From NCBI GenBank assembly GCA_021300195.1, contig JAJTIE010000001.1:1-64000 (forward strand): DNA of 64,000 nucleotides, written 5' to 3'. Below are positions 1 to 59,276 of the stretch, piece after piece. Source of the DNA: Bacteroidota bacterium. GTDB lineage: Bacteria; Bacteroidota; Bacteroidia; J057; JAJTIE01. Position 1 is the stretch's first letter. Every line of letters starts with the position of its first letter. A program made the position numbers and the translations under genes. Under the pieces are notes generated by a model, which was given only the letters and a program-made list of their open reading frames with translations, made no database searches and was not told the DNA's origin.

Positions 1-1790
1 GCAGGCTGCAGGCCAAAGCCTATGATGACACAGTACACGGCGGCCTTGCCCCGTGCCTCATTCGTCCACTTGAAAGTGCGGTGGGCGAAGTGGATCTTCA
101 CGCCCATTTTCAGCAGGTATTGCCACAGGATGCCTACCTGCTCGCCCTGGGTAATGGAGTTGGTAGACACCAGGGCCACCCGTATGTCGGTGCCCTGTAT
201 GTACTGGGCCGCCTTGGCATACCAGGCGCTCACAAAGTCGAGTGTACCGGCCCCCTTTACACCGGGCAGTGCAGCCAGCAGGCCCTCTCGCTGCTTGGGT
301 TCCATCAGCTTGCTGCCTACAAAGGGCGGGTTGCCCATCATGTAGCTCAGGGCTTTGGGGGCTATGTGTTTTTTCCAGTCCAGCGCCAGCGCATCTCCGT
401 GGTGGATGTGCGGGCTGTGGCGCAGGGGCAGGCGGCGGTAGTAGTGGCCAAAGGTTTCGCTCAGCAGCAGGTTCATCTGGTGGTCTACCATCCACATGGC
501 CACCTCGGCTATGCGGGCGGCAAACTCTTCGATCTCGATGCCATAAAACTGGCTGACGTAGAGCTGGCTGAGGTCGGCCACGTCCAGGGTGCGCTGCACG
601 TTGAAGCGTCCGCCCCCGCGCACCTGGCTCACCCATTTGTAGCGGGCCTTTATCACCTCTATCTCCAGCATGCGCAGCTCGCGGTAGGCCATGATAAGGA
701 AGTTGCCACAGCCGCAGGCGGGGTCCAGAAAGTTTAGCCCGGCCAGCTTTTGATGAAAGCTTACCACCTGCCGGGCATTGTTCTTTACCCGTTCAAACTC
801 CGCCCGAAGGTCATCCATAAAGAGGCTATTGATCACCTTCAGGATATTTTTCTCGCTGGTGTAGTGGGCTCCCAGGCTTCGGCGCTCCCTGGGGTTCATC
901 ACACTCTGGAAAAGGGAGCCAAAGATGGCGGGCGATATTTTGCTCCAGTCGAAGTAGCAACAGGCCAGCAGGGCCTGGCGCCCGGCCCGCTCAAAGATGG
1001 GCGGGCGCAGGGTGGCGCTGAAGAGGTCGCCGTTTACGTACGGAAACTGGCCCAGGTCCTGGTCTACCGTTTTTTGCCGCCTGCCCTCCGGGCTGTCCAG
1101 TATGTTAAACACCTCGTTGATCACCGAGCCCAGGTTCCGGCCATCCTCCTGGCTGTAGTTTTCTATGTAGTAGGTAAAGCTGTCCTTGGGAAAAATGCCG
1201 GTATCGTCGGCAAACAGGCAGAAGAGTAGCCGCACCATAAAAAGCTCCAGCTCCTTGTCCACATAGCCTTGTTTTTCCAGCTCGTCGTGCAGGCGGCCCA
1301 GCAGCTCGGCGGCCTGCAGGTTGGCCGGGTCTTCGTCGCGCAGCTTCACCCGCGTATAGCCTGCCATGAAGCCGAAGAGGTGCAGGTGGCTTAGCAGCTC
1401 GCCGAAGGCAAAATCCGTGTTTGTTTGCTCCTCCACATCGTATAGCCGGAAGTGCTCAAAGTCGGACACCAGCACGTAGCGGGGCAGCTGGCTATCCTTT
1501 AGCCCCGCAAAGTAGGAGAGGCTCTGGTCGTAGGCCTTGTCCAGGCTTTTGCCTCGGCTTTTGTGCTCTACCAGCAGCACCCCTTCCCAAAAAAGGTCGA
1601 TAAACCCATAGTTGCCGTCTGCCTTCTTTACCGGTGCCTCAAAGGCGGCCAGGGCACGGCGCTTCTGGCCAAATACATCGAAGAAGTCGTCCCAAAAGCT
1701 TTTTGCCTCGGCTTCTTCGCGGCTTTCATCTCGCCACTTGTGTATAAACTGTGTGGCACGGCTTCGTATTTCGTTCCAGCTTAACGACAT
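1..1790 (-). CDS. MmeI-like type IIL restriction-modification enzyme (C-terminus outside window)
   Basis: This gene encodes a single-chain enzyme that would both cut DNA and methylate adenine. It starts at ATG 1790 and runs off the left edge, so 596 codons are visible. A PD-(D/E)XK nuclease signature lies at D65, E75 and K77, with the exact D-X9-EXK spacing I recall for MmeI. A helical spacer follows. The methyltransferase core then shows motif I LDPACGCGNFL (from L355) and motif IV NPPF (N487-F490), the N6-adenine type. The target-recognition region should lie beyond the window. Base composition matches the host genes, so the gene is not obviously a recent arrival. It sits beside the initiator tRNA gene. 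BREX PglX proteins share the methylase fold, but the N-terminal nuclease motif argues for a type IIL enzyme. Whether it is intact cannot be judged because the 3' end is missing. Confidence 0.85.
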   Translation of the reverse strand, partial: MSLSWNEIRSRATQFIHKWRDESREEAEAKSFWDDFFDVFGQKRRALAAFEAPVKKADGNYGFIDLFWEGVLLVEHKSRGKSLDKAYDQSLSYFAGLKDSQLPRYVLVSDFEHFRLYDVEEQTNTDFAFGELLSHLHLFGFMAGYTRVKLRDEDPANLQAAELLGRLHDELEKQGYVDKELELFMVRLLFCLFADDTGIFPKDSFTYYIENYSQEDGRNLGSVINEVFNILDSPEGRRQKTVDQDLGQFPYVNGDLFSATLRPPIFERAGRQALLACCYFDWSKISPAIFGSLFQSVMNPRERRSLGAHYTSEKNILKVINSLFMDDLRAEFERVKNNARQVVSFHQKLAGLNFLDPACGCGNFLIMAYRELRMLEIEVIKARYKWVSQVRGGGRFNVQRTLDVADLSQLYVSQFYGIEIEEFAARIAEVAMWMVDHQMNLLLSETFGHYYRRLPLRHSPHIHHGDALALDWKKHIAPKALSYMMGNPPFVGSKLMEPKQREGLLAALPGVKGAGTLDFVSAWYAKAAQYIQGTDIRVALVSTNSITQGEQVGILWQYLLKMGVKIHFAHRTFKWTNEARGKAAVYCVIIGFGLQP

Positions 1791-12662: not shown

Positions 12663-14900
12663 ATGAATTCCTATCAGGTTAACTGTTTTATATTCACTAT
12701 TCTCGGTGCTCTGCTGTTTTCCAATGGACTAGGACAAAATGCACGACAAATTTCGGGATTTGTTTTGACCGAAACGGGTTCGCCGGTTTATAATGCAAAA
12801 GTGCTGAATGGAGGTACACATGTGCATACGGGTCGGCAGGGAGAATTTGTTTTGACCGGCGTATTAACAGGAGATAGCCTAATCGTAGAGCACCTGTATT
12901 ACAAGAACAAGATTTACGTAGTACTAGCAGAAGACTCGATCATATACATACAACTATCCCAAACTGAATTGATACTAGAAAATATTGAAGTGGAGGCAAA
13001 TCTGGATGCATTGAATAATATGAGCCAGGTTGACTTGAACAACTTTCCGGTGAACTCATCTCAAGACCTACTGAGACTGGTGCCGGGTCTTACTACTGGC
13101 CAGCATGCCGGAGGCGGAAAGGCAGAGCAGATTTTTCTACGCGGTTTTGACGTAGATCACGGTACAGATGTGGCTATATCAACAGACGGATTGCCGGTGA
13201 ACATGGTGTCGCATGCGCATGGCCAGGGCTATGCAGATCTGCATTTCCTGATACCCGAAACAGTGGAAAAGCTAGACTGGGGAAAGGGTCCATACGAGGC
13301 GAGCAAAGGAGATTTTGCAACAGCTGGATATGTAAACTTTTCTACACGCAGGCAGCTAGATAGCTCGCTTATACGTGCAGAAGCGGGGATGTTTGGCCAC
13401 CGGCGTATACTGGCAATGCTAAAGCTGGCAGATAGGAAGGAGGTACAGTCATACCTGGCTACAGAATACCAGGAAGCAGATGGACCCTTCGAGAGCTCGC
13501 AAAACCTGAATCGTATAAATGGATTTGGCAAAATAACCTTTACCCCCTCTCATACAGATCTGATCGGCCTAACGGCTTCCCACTTCTTTAGCAGTTGGGA
13601 TGCCTCGGGCCAGATTCCCCAGCGGGCAATAGATAGTGGTACTATCTCCAGATTTGGCGCAATAGACGATACAGAGGGCGGAATAACCCAGAGATCCCAA
13701 ATAAGCGTTGACCACGACAAGTGGCTATCTGATCACAGCAGAATTTCAAACAAGTTATTTTACACGCACTATAATTTCTTGTTATATTCAAACTTCACAT
13801 TTTATCTGAATGATCCGGTAAATGGTGACCAAATAAGACAAAGGGAGCAAAGAAATATGATTGGAATGCAGAGTGTTTATCAGCATGATCTTAAACTACT
13901 TGGTTTCTCCGTACACACCGAACTGGGGCTGTATCTCAGGCATGACAACGTGAATAACACCGAACTTTCACGTACAAAAAATAGAGATACCACCCTTAGC
14001 AGAATCCAGTATGGAGACATTCGGCAGACTAATTATGCTAGCTATTTTAGTACTAAGCTAACAAGGGGGTGCTGGGTTGTGAGTCCGGCTATACGTGTGG
14101 ATTACCTGGACTTCCTCTACAGGAATGCGCTTGAGCCTACCTATAATCCGAAAAGTAACACAGCAGCCTTGCTGAGCCCTAAGCTGAGCATACTATACTC
14201 TCCCGCTCGGCAGGTTCAGTTATTTTTGAAAGCCGGTAAAGGTTTCCACTCAAACAGTGCTCAAGTGGCTACACAGCAGGATGCAAAGAAGACACTTCCT
14301 GCTGCATACAGTGCGGACCTTGGTTATATCTGGAAGCCTGGTCGCAATCTATTCGTGAGCATGGCGTATTGGCATCTATTTCTTGAGCAAGAATTTGTAT
14401 ACGTAGGAGACGAAGGAATAGTGGAGCCCGCAGGAAAGACTGAACGGCAGGGTGCAGAGTTAGACCTACGTTACCAACCGCTAAGGTGGTTGATTGCCAA
14501 CCTGGATGCCACATATACCTTTGCCCGACTAACGGAAGCTACCACCGGAGAGGACAGAATTCCGCTTGCACCCACATTCACGCTCACCGGAAGTTTGAGT
14601 GCTCGTATGCGCTCTGGTATGTATGCCAGTATAAGGATGCGGAACCTGGCGGATAGACCTGCAAATGAAAAAAACTCGGTGGTGGCCAGGGGCTATACCA
14701 TTTTTGGCCTCTCCGGAGGCTACCAGGCTGCAAGACTGGGCCTAGAGCTGCAAATTGAAAACCTCTTCGACGTAGACTGGAATGAGACCCAGTTTTCAAC
14801 ACTTACTCGCCTAAAGGATGAGACAGAGCCCGTGGAGGAGATTCATTTTACCCCAGGCACGCCCCTTTCAGTTAGGGCGCAGTTGACCTATCGATTTTAG
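12663..14900 (+). CDS. TonB-dependent outer-membrane receptor with CarboxypepD_reg-like N-terminus
   Basis: A 745-residue outer-membrane transporter. A signal peptide (residues 1-25) precedes a carboxypeptidase-regulatory-like domain (about 30-110), a plug (about 125-240, with FLRGFDVDHGTDV and LPVNMVSHAHGQGYADLHF) and a 22-strand-type barrel ending in the usual aromatic residue (TYRF). The plug is histidine-rich (DVDHGTD, VSHAHGQGYADLH), which would suit a metal or metal-complex ligand; that is inference. No SusD partner or ABC genes are adjacent. The gene looks less G+C-rich and has less biased codon use than its neighbours, so it may have been acquired. The 270 bp upstream hold no recognisable riboswitch. 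Confidence 0.9.
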   Translation: MNSYQVNCFIFTILGALLFSNGLGQNARQISGFVLTETGSPVYNAKVLNGGTHVHTGRQGEFVLTGVLTGDSLIVEHLYYKNKIYVVLAEDSIIYIQLSQTELILENIEVEANLDALNNMSQVDLNNFPVNSSQDLLRLVPGLTTGQHAGGGKAEQIFLRGFDVDHGTDVAISTDGLPVNMVSHAHGQGYADLHFLIPETVEKLDWGKGPYEASKGDFATAGYVNFSTRRQLDSSLIRAEAGMFGHRRILAMLKLADRKEVQSYLATEYQEADGPFESSQNLNRINGFGKITFTPSHTDLIGLTASHFFSSWDASGQIPQRAIDSGTISRFGAIDDTEGGITQRSQISVDHDKWLSDHSRISNKLFYTHYNFLLYSNFTFYLNDPVNGDQIRQREQRNMIGMQSVYQHDLKLLGFSVHTELGLYLRHDNVNNTELSRTKNRDTTLSRIQYGDIRQTNYASYFSTKLTRGCWVVSPAIRVDYLDFLYRNALEPTYNPKSNTAALLSPKLSILYSPARQVQLFLKAGKGFHSNSAQVATQQDAKKTLPAAYSADLGYIWKPGRNLFVSMAYWHLFLEQEFVYVGDEGIVEPAGKTERQGAELDLRYQPLRWLIANLDATYTFARLTEATTGEDRIPLAPTFTLTGSLSARMRSGMYASIRMRNLADRPANEKNSVVARGYTIFGLSGGYQAARLGLELQIENLFDVDWNETQFSTLTRLKDETEPVEEIHFTPGTPLSVRAQLTYRF

Positions 14901-16945: not shown

Positions 16946-17971
<1,026 letters not shown>

Positions 17972-18008
17972 TTAAAAAAGATAGGGTTTGCTAAATCGAA
18001 ATTAGCTG

Positions 18009-18016
18009 CAAAGGTA
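18009..18016 (-). promoter_or_regulatory. -7 box of the gap promoter
   Basis: TACCTTTG on the minus strand matches the TAnnTTTG consensus exactly and is placed about 45 nt before the gap start codon. No clear TTG is seen at the -33 position. Confidence 0.5.
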
Positions 18017-18077
18017 CGAAATATCCCAGGCTGGTGCCAGCTTTTTTGCCGTGTACGGCGGTGTGTGCGGCGGCGGG

Positions 18078-18203
18078 CTAGCTCCGCTCGGGGTGCAAGC
18101 GGCGGTATAGGGCAATGGTTTCCTTCAGGGCGGCTATCTCGGCATAGCGGGCGGCCAGCAGCTGCTCGTATAGGGCCTGATTGTACGGGCTTTGCTGTTG
18201 CAA
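18078..18203 (-). pseudogene. Truncated 3' end of an unidentified gene beside the reverse transcriptase gene
   Basis: Immediately 3' of the reverse transcriptase gene, one frame encodes 41 residues (LQQQSPYNQALYEQ to LHPERS, stop 18078) with the G+C-rich codon use of the host. It forms a strongly amphipathic helix of the kind found at the C-terminus of coiled-coil or dimeric regulatory proteins. The frame is closed upstream by TGA at 18204-18206 and has no ATG. I interpret it as the tail of a resident gene whose front part was lost when the A+T-rich reverse transcriptase segment arrived. A short TTG-started protein is the alternative. The original function cannot be read from so little sequence. 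Confidence 0.45.
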
Positions 18204-18221
18204 TCACTTTAGACATGATCA

Positions 18222-19832
18222 CTAGTTGTACTGTGAAAATACTTCTACTTCGTCGGACGATACTTTTTTACCTAATTTATTTTTCTTTTTTTGATCAATG
18301 AAAGATAGATTCTTTTTTATGTTGCTTGAGATATCTTCCTTCACCCAATCAAAATTCCAGATTTCAATTTCATCTTCATTCACCTTTTTTGTAAGCATTT
18401 CACTCCAAATTATATCCTTATTCTGAAGGCAAATCCGTTGCAGCCAAAGCTCAAGAATCCCTGAATTCTGTATCGTCCTCAATTTTTCAATTATCTTAGA
18501 CTTTAGTGCTTCTTTTTTTCCTTCATCGCGCTCCATTTCTAATAGATGACTCAATATAGCACAGCCAATCGAATATATATTAGAGTTTCTGGTCATAATA
18601 GAAACAAGAATTGAGCAAAGTTTTTCCATATCGCTTAATTTAAATATATCGACTTTTCGCATCCTAATTTTTTTCTCACCTATTTCATTTATCTGTGCAT
18701 CCAAACTTAATCGTCGCTTTCTTCTGATATCTTTGTATACTTGGCTTAGTACTCTCGCTATTGTTCCAGCATTTGTATGTGTCAGGCTAAACTCATGCAA
18801 GGAAATAAGTTTTCGAAATATTGTGTTACTTTCTTTTTCATATACCATCCAGTCCTTCTTATCCTGTTTGAGTGAACTGGATATTATATTATTCGAAATA
18901 TAGGTTTTTTCTTTGTTTAACTTCATTCCAAGTTCCATAAGAATTTTCGAAAGACTCCTCATTATCATTTCAAGATCTGAAGAATTTTGGGCAAAAACTC
19001 TGTAATCATCCCGGTGCCTAAGAATTCTGAAATTGAGCACAGGTCCCTGAGACAGCTCCTTTTTCAGCTCCTTTTCTAGCAGACTATCCGCATATGCCAG
19101 TACCATCTCGGCAATAAAATCCATAAGAACGCTACCCTGAGGGATACCATTGGTTTGTCCGTGCTGCATCCCTTGGATAGTTTTATCTATCTCATCGCCG
19201 ACCAGAGACTCTTTCACTGTTCCGTTTTTATTCTCCTTTGCCGTCTCCTTGTCATGTAGTGCCCAGGCGATAGTGTGCGTATAGATAGAACCGTAGCAAT
19301 CGACGATATCTGTGTGTAGTACATATTCATAATTAAGAGCCAAGCTAAGAGATTTTTGCTCGTTTCTTTCTACCCACTCTGATATACTAGCTCCTTTTAA
19401 TGTTTCGCTTTTTTTATCGATCTTAATAGGACAAACAGGCATACTGGTACATTCTATTTGATCTATTTTTAGATCTTCAAATCTTTTTAAAATCAATTTC
19501 CAGTTATCTTTTTCTGTTATTATTCTTACCAGTAATATATACAATACTGGATTTATTAATTGAAGAGGTCTCCAGGCATATTTCCCGTCTTTGTTGTGAT
19601 ATATAACATGATTCACTTTTTCAAACTTACTTGGCAAAATACCTTTTTTCAATAATAAGTCCTTCAATTTGCGTTTGTCTATAATTTCATAAATACTAGA
19701 AATAAACCCTTCGAAATCAAAATAGGGCGGTAATTTCTCGGAAAAATAGGCATCCCCGCTGAGGAAAAAATCTCTCGCCTCATCATGCGTTAGCTCCAGT
19801 ATGCTTTTCCTTAGTACTTTTTCTTTGCCCAT
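18222..19832 (-). CDS. UG/Abi-type reverse transcriptase, probable defence-associated RT
   Basis: A 536-residue protein with reverse-transcriptase palm motifs: YAWRPLQLINPVLY (residues 85-98); motif A HTDIVDCYGSIY with catalytic D175; motif B NGIPQGSVLMDF (228-239); motif C with H273-R-D275-D276 in place of YxDD; motif D LGMKLNKEKT (301-310). The last 200 residues are predicted helical, with no maturase X domain, endonuclease or integrase, which fits the Unknown Group/Abi branch (DRT systems, AbiA, AbiK) rather than group II introns. From memory it most resembles the Drt3a/UG3 or Drt4/UG15 style, but no second RT is present. The gene is strikingly A+T-rich against its surroundings. Only 55 bp separate it from the upstream M23 stop, leaving no room for a long 5' ncRNA. 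Role in phage defence is inferred from family knowledge. Confidence 0.82.
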   Translation of the reverse strand: MGKEKVLRKSILELTHDEARDFFLSGDAYFSEKLPPYFDFEGFISSIYEIIDKRKLKDLLLKKGILPSKFEKVNHVIYHNKDGKYAWRPLQLINPVLYILLVRIITEKDNWKLILKRFEDLKIDQIECTSMPVCPIKIDKKSETLKGASISEWVERNEQKSLSLALNYEYVLHTDIVDCYGSIYTHTIAWALHDKETAKENKNGTVKESLVGDEIDKTIQGMQHGQTNGIPQGSVLMDFIAEMVLAYADSLLEKELKKELSQGPVLNFRILRHRDDYRVFAQNSSDLEMIMRSLSKILMELGMKLNKEKTYISNNIISSSLKQDKKDWMVYEKESNTIFRKLISLHEFSLTHTNAGTIARVLSQVYKDIRRKRRLSLDAQINEIGEKKIRMRKVDIFKLSDMEKLCSILVSIMTRNSNIYSIGCAILSHLLEMERDEGKKEALKSKIIEKLRTIQNSGILELWLQRICLQNKDIIWSEMLTKKVNEDEIEIWNFDWVKEDISSNIKKNLSFIDQKKKNKLGKKVSSDEVEVFSQYN

Positions 19833-19887
19833 ATCGGCAATTTATTATAGTTATTTCTTTCCTAGCCTGCCACTGTGTTGGCCTTTT

Positions 19888-57276: not shown

Positions 57277-58107
57277 CTAGTTATTGATGGCGAATAGAAT
57301 TTTAAGCCAATCTATTTCGCTATCAAAATCAAGATCATATTTCTCCTGGAGCTCATATTTTAGTCGTTCCGGAGCATTCCGGACAATTTTTGCCACATCC
57401 TCATTAGAACTTAATACCTTTGACGAACCAACTTGGGTTCCCTCTAGTACCCACTCTTGGGTTCTTTCCTCACCCCCGTTTAGCCAAGACCAAAAATCCT
57501 TTCCTGCCAAAACCCGGACATAGTCTAGAACTACAAATTGTGATTGTTGCCTTGGATTTATACCCCTTAATATCTCATACTTGTTAGTAAGTGAGGATTC
57601 ATTTCCATAAAATACACCAACAACAATTTCTTTTCCATATAAATTAAAATCTCCTATCTGCTTGAAAGCACTATATAAGCTATGGGCAGATGCATCCTGT
57701 ATAGTCCAAGGTCCAGCCTTAACAGATAATAAACACCAGTCAGTATCAGAGTGGGGATTTACAATGTGATCAATCTCATTATAGGCAGAGCTATTCATTT
57801 TCCTTTTTCTCCTTTGAACAGAGTCAAGTTTTATAGTGCCAAAAACATTGGGTAATATTTTCTCATCAATGGTTTTTCCAAAACTAGTTGCATGTCCTGA
57901 AGCCATATGACTTATGAATAGGAAATTAGCTAAGTCGTCTAGATTTTTTAATTCATGGATATCCCTTAATGCAGACATCAGAAAGGGATTTATATTAAGA
58001 AAGGAACTGATTTCCTTCTCAAGCTTTCGAATTCTTCTTATCAACAAGGCTTCTATTTCAATGGCGACCTTGTTTACAACTTCTTCCTTGTTCTTCTTGG
58101 TATTCAT
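57277..58107 (-). CDS. Type II restriction endonuclease, EcoO109I-like
   Basis: A 276-residue protein that pairs with the upstream cytosine methylase. Features I recall for the EcoO109I/PmeII group are NINPFLMSALRDIH, SGHATSFGKTIDEKILPNVFG, EIDHIV (D113) and LLSVKAGPWTIQ (S128, K130), the PD-(D/E)XK core with Ser at the usual Glu position. It starts at ATG 58107, overlapping the methylase stop by 4 bp, the common methylase-first order. The DNA is A+T-rich and contrasts sharply with hmuS upstream and galE downstream, which suggests horizontal gain of the whole pair. Recognition site is not deducible. Confidence 0.82.
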   Translation of the reverse strand: MNTKKNKEEVVNKVAIEIEALLIRRIRKLEKEISSFLNINPFLMSALRDIHELKNLDDLANFLFISHMASGHATSFGKTIDEKILPNVFGTIKLDSVQRRKRKMNSSAYNEIDHIVNPHSDTDWCLLSVKAGPWTIQDASAHSLYSAFKQIGDFNLYGKEIVVGVFYGNESSLTNKYEILRGINPRQQSQFVVLDYVRVLAGKDFWSWLNGGEERTQEWVLEGTQVGSSKVLSSNEDVAKIVRNAPERLKYELQEKYDLDFDSEIDWLKILFAINN

Positions 58108-59276
58108 TTTATTGGTTGCTGAGAAGAAAGATAAGGGCTACCAGAATATACTTTACCAGCTTTGTAGTATTGCCTTGTCCTCACGTGCGGTCTTATATGA
58201 ATAATTTCGTGATTGTCCATTTTAGATCTAAGCTTGGTACTTTTGCTTATATTCTGAATTGCAATTCCAGCCATTTTTCCAAGTACAACTGGAACAGCAT
58301 TCCCGATTTGTCTATATTTCTCAGCAGGTGTCCCTATAAACTTCCAATGGCTTGGGAATGTTTGTATCGCGGAACACTCACCAACTGTTAATGCTCTAAT
58401 TTGCTTTGGATGGCACATGCTTGTACTGGCATGATTTGGCATAGTTACTATTGTAGGTGCTGGTGAATCCATTGATAAGCGTCTCCAATAAGCAGATCTT
58501 CCGCCCTTTAGATACCAAGATTTACCCATGGATTCCTTTTGAATATCAATTGGCATGCTGCGCCAATTGCCTCCCTCTGGAACATATGATAAGTATTTTT
58601 TTTTTCTTTCAGAAAAATCCATAATATCAGAGTCTGGATCCTTGAAATCTATTAAAACATCACCTAGATTTCTAAAATATTTTTGATTTTCATTTGGTTT
58701 GTCGCTATGCGTAGGAGATGGAAATTCGGCCTTTTTATTTAGCCTATTTCCTATCATTATAATTCTCTCTCGAATTTGAGGTGCTCCATAATTTACGGCA
58801 TTAACAAAGAATGTATCGACTACGTAACCGATTGATATTATCTTTTCAATTAACATATCATACAAAGATTTTTTGCCATTTTCTGTTTCAACTATCATAG
58901 AATGAAGTCCCCTTACATTTTCCATTATGAAATATTCAGGATTGATTTCTTCCACAATTCTTAGAAACTCAAAAACCAATTTCCCTCTTAAATCTTTAAT
59001 TCCCTTTCTTCTACCTATGATACTAAATGCTTGACACGGAGGCCCACCAACTACTATATTTATATTTGACCTATCAGATATTCCAATTTTAGAAAGAATA
59101 TAATTGCCTTTTAATGTTGAAATATCTTCTCTAATTACGGGCAAATCAGGTCGATTATTATTAATTGTTTTTACTGCTGAAGAATCAAGTTCTACGCAAC
59201 ACATAATCTCTATACCAGCTTGTTCTAGACCTAGATCTAGGCCCATGGCACCTGAAAAGAGTGAAATAGCTTTCAT
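58104..59276 (-). CDS. C5-cytosine DNA methyltransferase
   Basis: A 390-residue modification enzyme with all ordered motifs: I LFSGAMGLDLGL (6-17), IV GGPPCQAFS with catalytic C81, VI ENVRG (E119), VIII QIRERI (167-172), and X RQIGNAVPVVLGK (322-334). The target-recognition region lies about 185-300. It protects DNA from the endonuclease gene that overlaps its end. The gene is A+T-rich, has its own consensus promoter, and forms a two-gene restriction-modification operon. Confidence 0.95.
   Translation of the reverse strand: MKAISLFSGAMGLDLGLEQAGIEIMCCVELDSSAVKTINNNRPDLPVIREDISTLKGNYILSKIGISDRSNINIVVGGPPCQAFSIIGRRKGIKDLRGKLVFEFLRIVEEINPEYFIMENVRGLHSMIVETENGKKSLYDMLIEKIISIGYVVDTFFVNAVNYGAPQIRERIIMIGNRLNKKAEFPSPTHSDKPNENQKYFRNLGDVLIDFKDPDSDIMDFSERKKKYLSYVPEGGNWRSMPIDIQKESMGKSWYLKGGRSAYWRRLSMDSPAPTIVTMPNHASTSMCHPKQIRALTVGECSAIQTFPSHWKFIGTPAEKYRQIGNAVPVVLGKMAGIAIQNISKSTKLRSKMDNHEIIHIRPHVRTRQYYKAGKVYSGSPYLSSQQPIK

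Follow-up and report, generated by a model that had tools for sequence, protein, structure and literature searches.

The reverse transcriptase (RT) gene on the minus strand of the window (the whole 64,000-nucleotide stretch analysed, contig JAJTIE010000001.1 of a Bacteroidota bacterium) was identified as a divergent member of the AbiP2 family, which is already known and structurally solved. Its product is most probably a stand-alone, horizontally acquired AbiP2 polymerase that carries out protein-primed, template-independent synthesis of single-stranded DNA (ssDNA) in abortive infection. The intact gene anticipated at this position was confirmed as a single minus-strand ORF, which in the ORF list has 536 codons, an ATG start and no internal stop. 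The features of the region are as follows, with rows referring to a 75-row family alignment:

18222–19832, minus strand: AbiP2-family polymerase gene, 536 aa, fingers/palm at about residues 1–320 and helical domain at about 320–536 (from the ORF, PADLOC, the AlphaFold model and the structural match to 7r08)
19722–19724, minus strand: codon of Tyr37, equivalent of the Abi-P2 priming Tyr61 by alignment to 7r08, Tyr in 75/75 rows
19308–19310, minus strand: codon of catalytic Asp175 (motif A), invariant in 75/75 rows
19005–19010, minus strand: codons of catalytic Asp275-Asp276 (motif C), invariant in 75/75 rows
19014–19016, minus strand: codon CAC of His273 at the position of the YxDD tyrosine (Abi-P2 Tyr282, AbiK Tyr245), Tyr in 74/74 other rows
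18636–18698, minus strand: 21-residue insert (residues 379–399) in the helical domain, peculiar to the window copy, with low model confidence at 381–400
19833–19887, minus strand: upstream spacer of 55 nt with a TATAAT-like hexamer, read from the sequence
18081–18203, minus strand: open stretch of 41 codons with some likeness to a Cro/C1-type regulator's C-terminal tail but no helix-turn-helix, a possible remnant 3′ of the RT gene

In a profile search against PADLOC, AbiP2 was the top match at 564 bits (E = 8e-170, residues 8–535), and the next profiles, Drt6 (170 bits), RT_UG14 and Drt4, reached 170 bits at most, which bears out the original prediction of a single-gene defence RT of the UG/Abi type. 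Comparison with PDB entries by phmmer matched the protein over its full length to Abi-P2 (7r08) at 1e-74 with 34% identity, all other entries being at 1e-18 or weaker; the 7r08 protein is encoded by the P2-EC30 record (GenBank:AM157365), with identity over the aligned part. Among the NCBIfam models, that for group II intron maturases gave 61 bits (cut-off 300), in agreement with the expected absence of maturase affinity, and Drt4 (119 bits, cut-off 450), Drt3b (105 bits, cut-off 350) and Drt5 (far below cut-off) were likewise not reached. DRT3, which consists of Drt3a, Drt3b and an ncRNA, was considered and rejected on this Drt3b score and on the RT being the sole RVT_1 gene detected in its genome. 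RVT_1 was also the one Pfam domain above cut-off in the protein, and the structural model was helical after residue 316, so that the description of a helical C-terminus free of maturase or endonuclease domains was upheld. The suggestion of an uncharacterised subtype was not, since for this family a crystal structure has been solved, the priming tyrosine has been mapped and a phenotype has been described, Abi-P2 being reported to protect against T5 (PMC9508834).

AlphaFold2, run as a monomer on an alignment of the window RT protein with 54 relatives, produced a model with a mean pLDDT of 91.5 and a pTM of 0.92. In a Foldseek search with this model, the six chains of 7r08 ranked first (1e-29 to 1e-27), followed by DRT4, DRT6, UG15, AbiK and AbiA. 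By VIA-align, the model superimposed on 7r08 with Z 36.4 and 2.4 Å over 464 residues, and on this overlay the helical C-terminus was equated with the Abi helical domain. This domain substitutes for the thumb in Abi-P2 and AbiK, where it grips the single-stranded product (PMC9508834). Comparison with known systems gave the following: 1) Abi-P2 of the Escherichia coli P2-like prophage P2-EC30 has in common with the window RT its family, length, fold, Asp triad, priming tyrosine and single-gene form, but it is a prophage gene whereas the window RT lies in a chromosomal island, and the two differ further in the 34% identity, in His273 for Tyr282 and in the 21-residue helical-domain insert; 2) DRT6 (9wy8) and DRT4/UG15 (9vdo, 9l9s) are likewise UG/Abi RTs encoded by one gene and built of the same two domains, and DRT4 is reported to make random ssDNA in the absence of a template (PMC13213688), but they belong to other PADLOC models and are more distant (DRT6 Z 24.1, DRT4/UG15 Z 22–23 with DRT4 at 22.5, 18–23% identity, where Abi-P2 has Z 36 and 34%); and 3) AbiK (7r06, 7r07) belongs to the same mechanism class as Abi-P2, namely protein-primed untemplated synthesis, but it is a hexamer with its priming Tyr44 elsewhere in the loop, and gave 15–17% identity and Z of about 20 with the window RT.

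The palm motifs proved complete as first described, comprising Asp175, the motif B NGIPQGS (residues 228–234) and Asp275/Asp276. Abi-P2 makes DNA with neither primer nor template added, and its synthesis is abolished by Y61F but not by Y46F (PMC9508834); the residue numbers of that study were taken as those of the aligned 7r08 chain because Tyr282 falls in RYRDDY. The priming Tyr61 thus corresponds to Tyr37 of the window RT, and the non-priming Tyr46 is aligned with Phe22. The window RT folds into RT fingers and palm, with the Abi helical domain where a thumb would be. By analogy with Abi-P2 and AbiK, it would probably assemble as a trimer, as Abi-P2 does; Tyr37 would receive the first dNTP, and the chain would then be extended to untemplated ssDNA by means of Asp175, Asp275 and Asp276. 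Least certain are the trigger, the target and the defence phenotype in vivo: phage infection may set off the synthesis, upon which phage growth would stop or the cell would die. For Abi-P2 and AbiK too, the trigger and the route from random DNA to phage arrest are uncertain (PMC9508834). With DRT4, a structural relative, a DNA-binding protein of the phage reportedly shields the random ssDNA, which becomes toxic as a result (PMC13213688), and a trigger of this kind may act on the window RT.

The original prediction had offered two modes of action, a protein-only synthesiser or an enzyme using a template located elsewhere. The former is the best reading, because the protein belongs to AbiP2 and the priming Tyr37 and Asp175, Asp275 and Asp276 are conserved, the chemistry itself being assigned by analogy. 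No support was obtained for the latter: those biochemically characterised proteins that are nearest to the window RT work without a template, and in several relatives the RT begins only a few nucleotides from the upstream gene, so that a 5′ ncRNA would not fit. DRT2, DRT3 and DRT9 among the UG/Abi RTs do use an ncRNA (PMC13213688), but it is extremely unlikely that the window RT is an RNA-templated defence RT of these or the retron type with its ncRNA encoded elsewhere: similarity to those families was much lower in both profiles and structure, the RT is the only one detected in its genome, Rfam, which does not cover every retron RNA, gave no match at the gathering threshold between 10000 and 30000 of the window, and only 55 nt lie upstream, with AbiP2 relatives even overlapping the preceding gene.

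Leave-one-out analysis of the alignment revealed that, among 40 columns invariant in the 74 other rows, the window RT differed at one only, His273, although the sample is biased, since it contains a few duplicates and short exact peptides (excluding residue 273) served to pick its genome-collection rows. AbiP2 loci from a whole-genome search, which are partly the same sequences, had RYRDDY wherever the motif was covered, and Y(R/V)DD was found conserved in the Abi lineage in a 2014 survey of bacterial RTs (PMC4244168). Since the YxDD tyrosine is a common trait rather than one defining AbiP2, His273 counts as a departure of the window copy. The substitution requires a single base change (TAC to CAC), and it could stem from an assembly error. 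The AbiK equivalent, Tyr245, is stacked against the growing DNA, and with Y245A the yield drops to small amounts of short products (PMC9508834). At 15 positions where at least 85% of the rows agree, the window RT departs from them; its changes at conserved sites other than His273 include P417S, P455Q and C481T, and several otherwise conserved prolines are missing. In a tree of AbiP2 relatives its end branch had a length of 1.45 (median 0.35), and it fell near the base without a fixed position. With His273, the long branch and the 15 departures, its activity may be reduced or altered.

These departures could mark a weakened or dying AbiP2 copy that still folds but, through His273 and the other odd residues, makes short products only and is heading for loss. 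The histidine unique among the 75 rows, the loss of long products in AbiK Y245A, the changes at other conserved sites and the position of the gene in a solo island adjoining a possible gene remnant would fit such decay, but we consider it unlikely, for the frame is full length, the catalytic and priming residues are intact, the model is confident, and histidine has a flat ring that may still stack. Divergence alone does not signify decay either, because at 90%-conserved columns the window RT departed 9 times, whereas phage Abi-P2 proteins, one of them known to be active, departed 13–15 times, a range that becomes 13–16 when the plasmid reference sequence is counted in with those of the P2-like phages. 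It is rather improbable that the resulting HRDD motif and the extra loop in the helical domain alter the DNA made, in length or base preference, as a natural separation-of-function form of AbiP2. More improbable still is a functionally distinct subtype in which His273 and the insert would affect how long the products are, which bases are preferred or how the protein oligomerises; residues neighbouring the active site can set the product sequence in Drt3b (PMC13213688), and the window RT, with its long branch and its own insert, is unplaced at the family base, but it is a single sequence lacking close relatives, and in its fold as a whole and in every other motif it agrees with Abi-P2. With an AbiP2 polymerase of the usual mode of action as the preferred reading, His273 is the single point of the window RT worth attention at the bench.

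The RT gene has a G+C content of 35% against about 60% in the surrounding genes, with 0.42/0.28/0.35 at the three codon positions, as compared with 0.65/0.43/0.75 in the GAPDH gene and 0.71/0.50/0.81 in the M23 peptidase gene. On the minus strand the order is cyclophilin-type isomerase, M23 peptidase, the 55-nt spacer, RT, GAPDH and PGK, and a PD-(D/E)XK nuclease protein is also encoded among the same-strand neighbours. Codon-position composition and neighbour annotation thus confirmed the picture of an A+T-rich gene amid housekeeping genes, and the 55 nt given for the upstream distance was exact, the spacer ending at the M23 gene. Neither a partner gene nor a neighbouring defence gene was present at the locus, consistent with the partnerless RT foreseen. 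Since composition shifts near 18204–18222 and again near 19833–19880, at both gene edges, the foreign DNA measures some 1.65 kb, with the RT as its sole gene. A promoter-like site was located at 19873–19844 in the spacer, but such sites were at chance level in the region (5 found, 5.3 expected).

The possible remnant at 18081–18203 resembled, weakly (E 0.28), a regulator with an HTH_3 domain (1e-14) encoded elsewhere in the same genome (L122, 1465–1848), which suggests that the insertion may have removed the front of a Cro/C1-type regulator gene. The ORF at 17953–18222 gave no match in Pfam and probably does not represent a real gene. No convincing flanking repeats of integration were found around the RT gene. 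In the only other genome from its family, a GTPase-like gene (387 aa) came after the M23 gene, with GAPDH on a separate contig; because the site is rearranged there, an empty site could not be demonstrated.

AbiP2 was detected in 9 of the 395 genomes of a phylum sample (E 1e-60), and intact relatives in 4 of the 395 of a class sample, the window genome being included both times; there was none in 21 other genomes of the same order. Its other occurrences were on P2-like prophages and plasmids, the latter from Enterococcus, Staphylococcus, Pediococcus and others. This sporadic distribution, together with the foreign composition, fits horizontal transfer of the window RT. The window RT adds to the family one of its more divergent members, chromosomal and outside prophages and plasmids. 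Closest by sequence were AbiP2 RTs of Bacteroidota, for example those from Parabacteroides (L017) and a Bacteroidetes MAG (L008), with 44% identity over the full length; as with the window RT, no type I restriction-modification (RM) gene was found beside them. Unlike the window RT, the Bacteroidota AbiP2 RTs all keep RYRDDY, and it was not grouped with them in the tree. It was also noticed that in phage pro147, a P2-like phage (L085, 1577–5566), an RT accompanied by an effector of the retron Ec48 type adjoins an Abi-P2 gene in divergent orientation.

A type I RM subunit was encoded within five ORFs of the AbiP2 RT in 22 of 78 relatives, and directly upstream in 14 (L020, L022, L024, L025, L026, L038, L039, L044, L053, L054, L059, L064, L070 and L072); the RM-linked relatives come from many phyla. 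The directly upstream gene is usually hsdS; among those of this set identified by Pfam, six were hsdS, one hsdM and two hsdR. In 12 of the 14, an ATG or GTG start of the RT was within five nt of the upstream stop, often as a 4-nt overlap, and in the family the RT often starts so close to the hsdS stop that no room is left for a 5′ ncRNA. The linkage was clustered on the tree yet required 13–14 changes, so it came and went. These results suggest that AbiP2 may serve as a back-up to restriction. No prior report of the linkage turned up among the full texts searched. The window RT itself stands alone, and the type I-like N6 methylase gene of its genome is unlinked, on another contig (C32). The family alignment and the coupling of hsdS to AbiP2 provide two handles, one on the YxDD tyrosine and product length, the other on a back-up role when type I restriction fails.

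Elsewhere in the window, a second A+T-rich island (57277–59276, minus strand) carries a type II RM pair with a 4-nt overlap, in which an EcoO109I-like endonuclease is paired with a C5 cytosine methyltransferase. A TonB-dependent receptor gene (12663–14900, plus strand) has a G+C content of 0.47, below that of its surroundings, and a weak N6-methylase match was located at 312–734 (minus strand) in a 599-residue open frame at the window edge.
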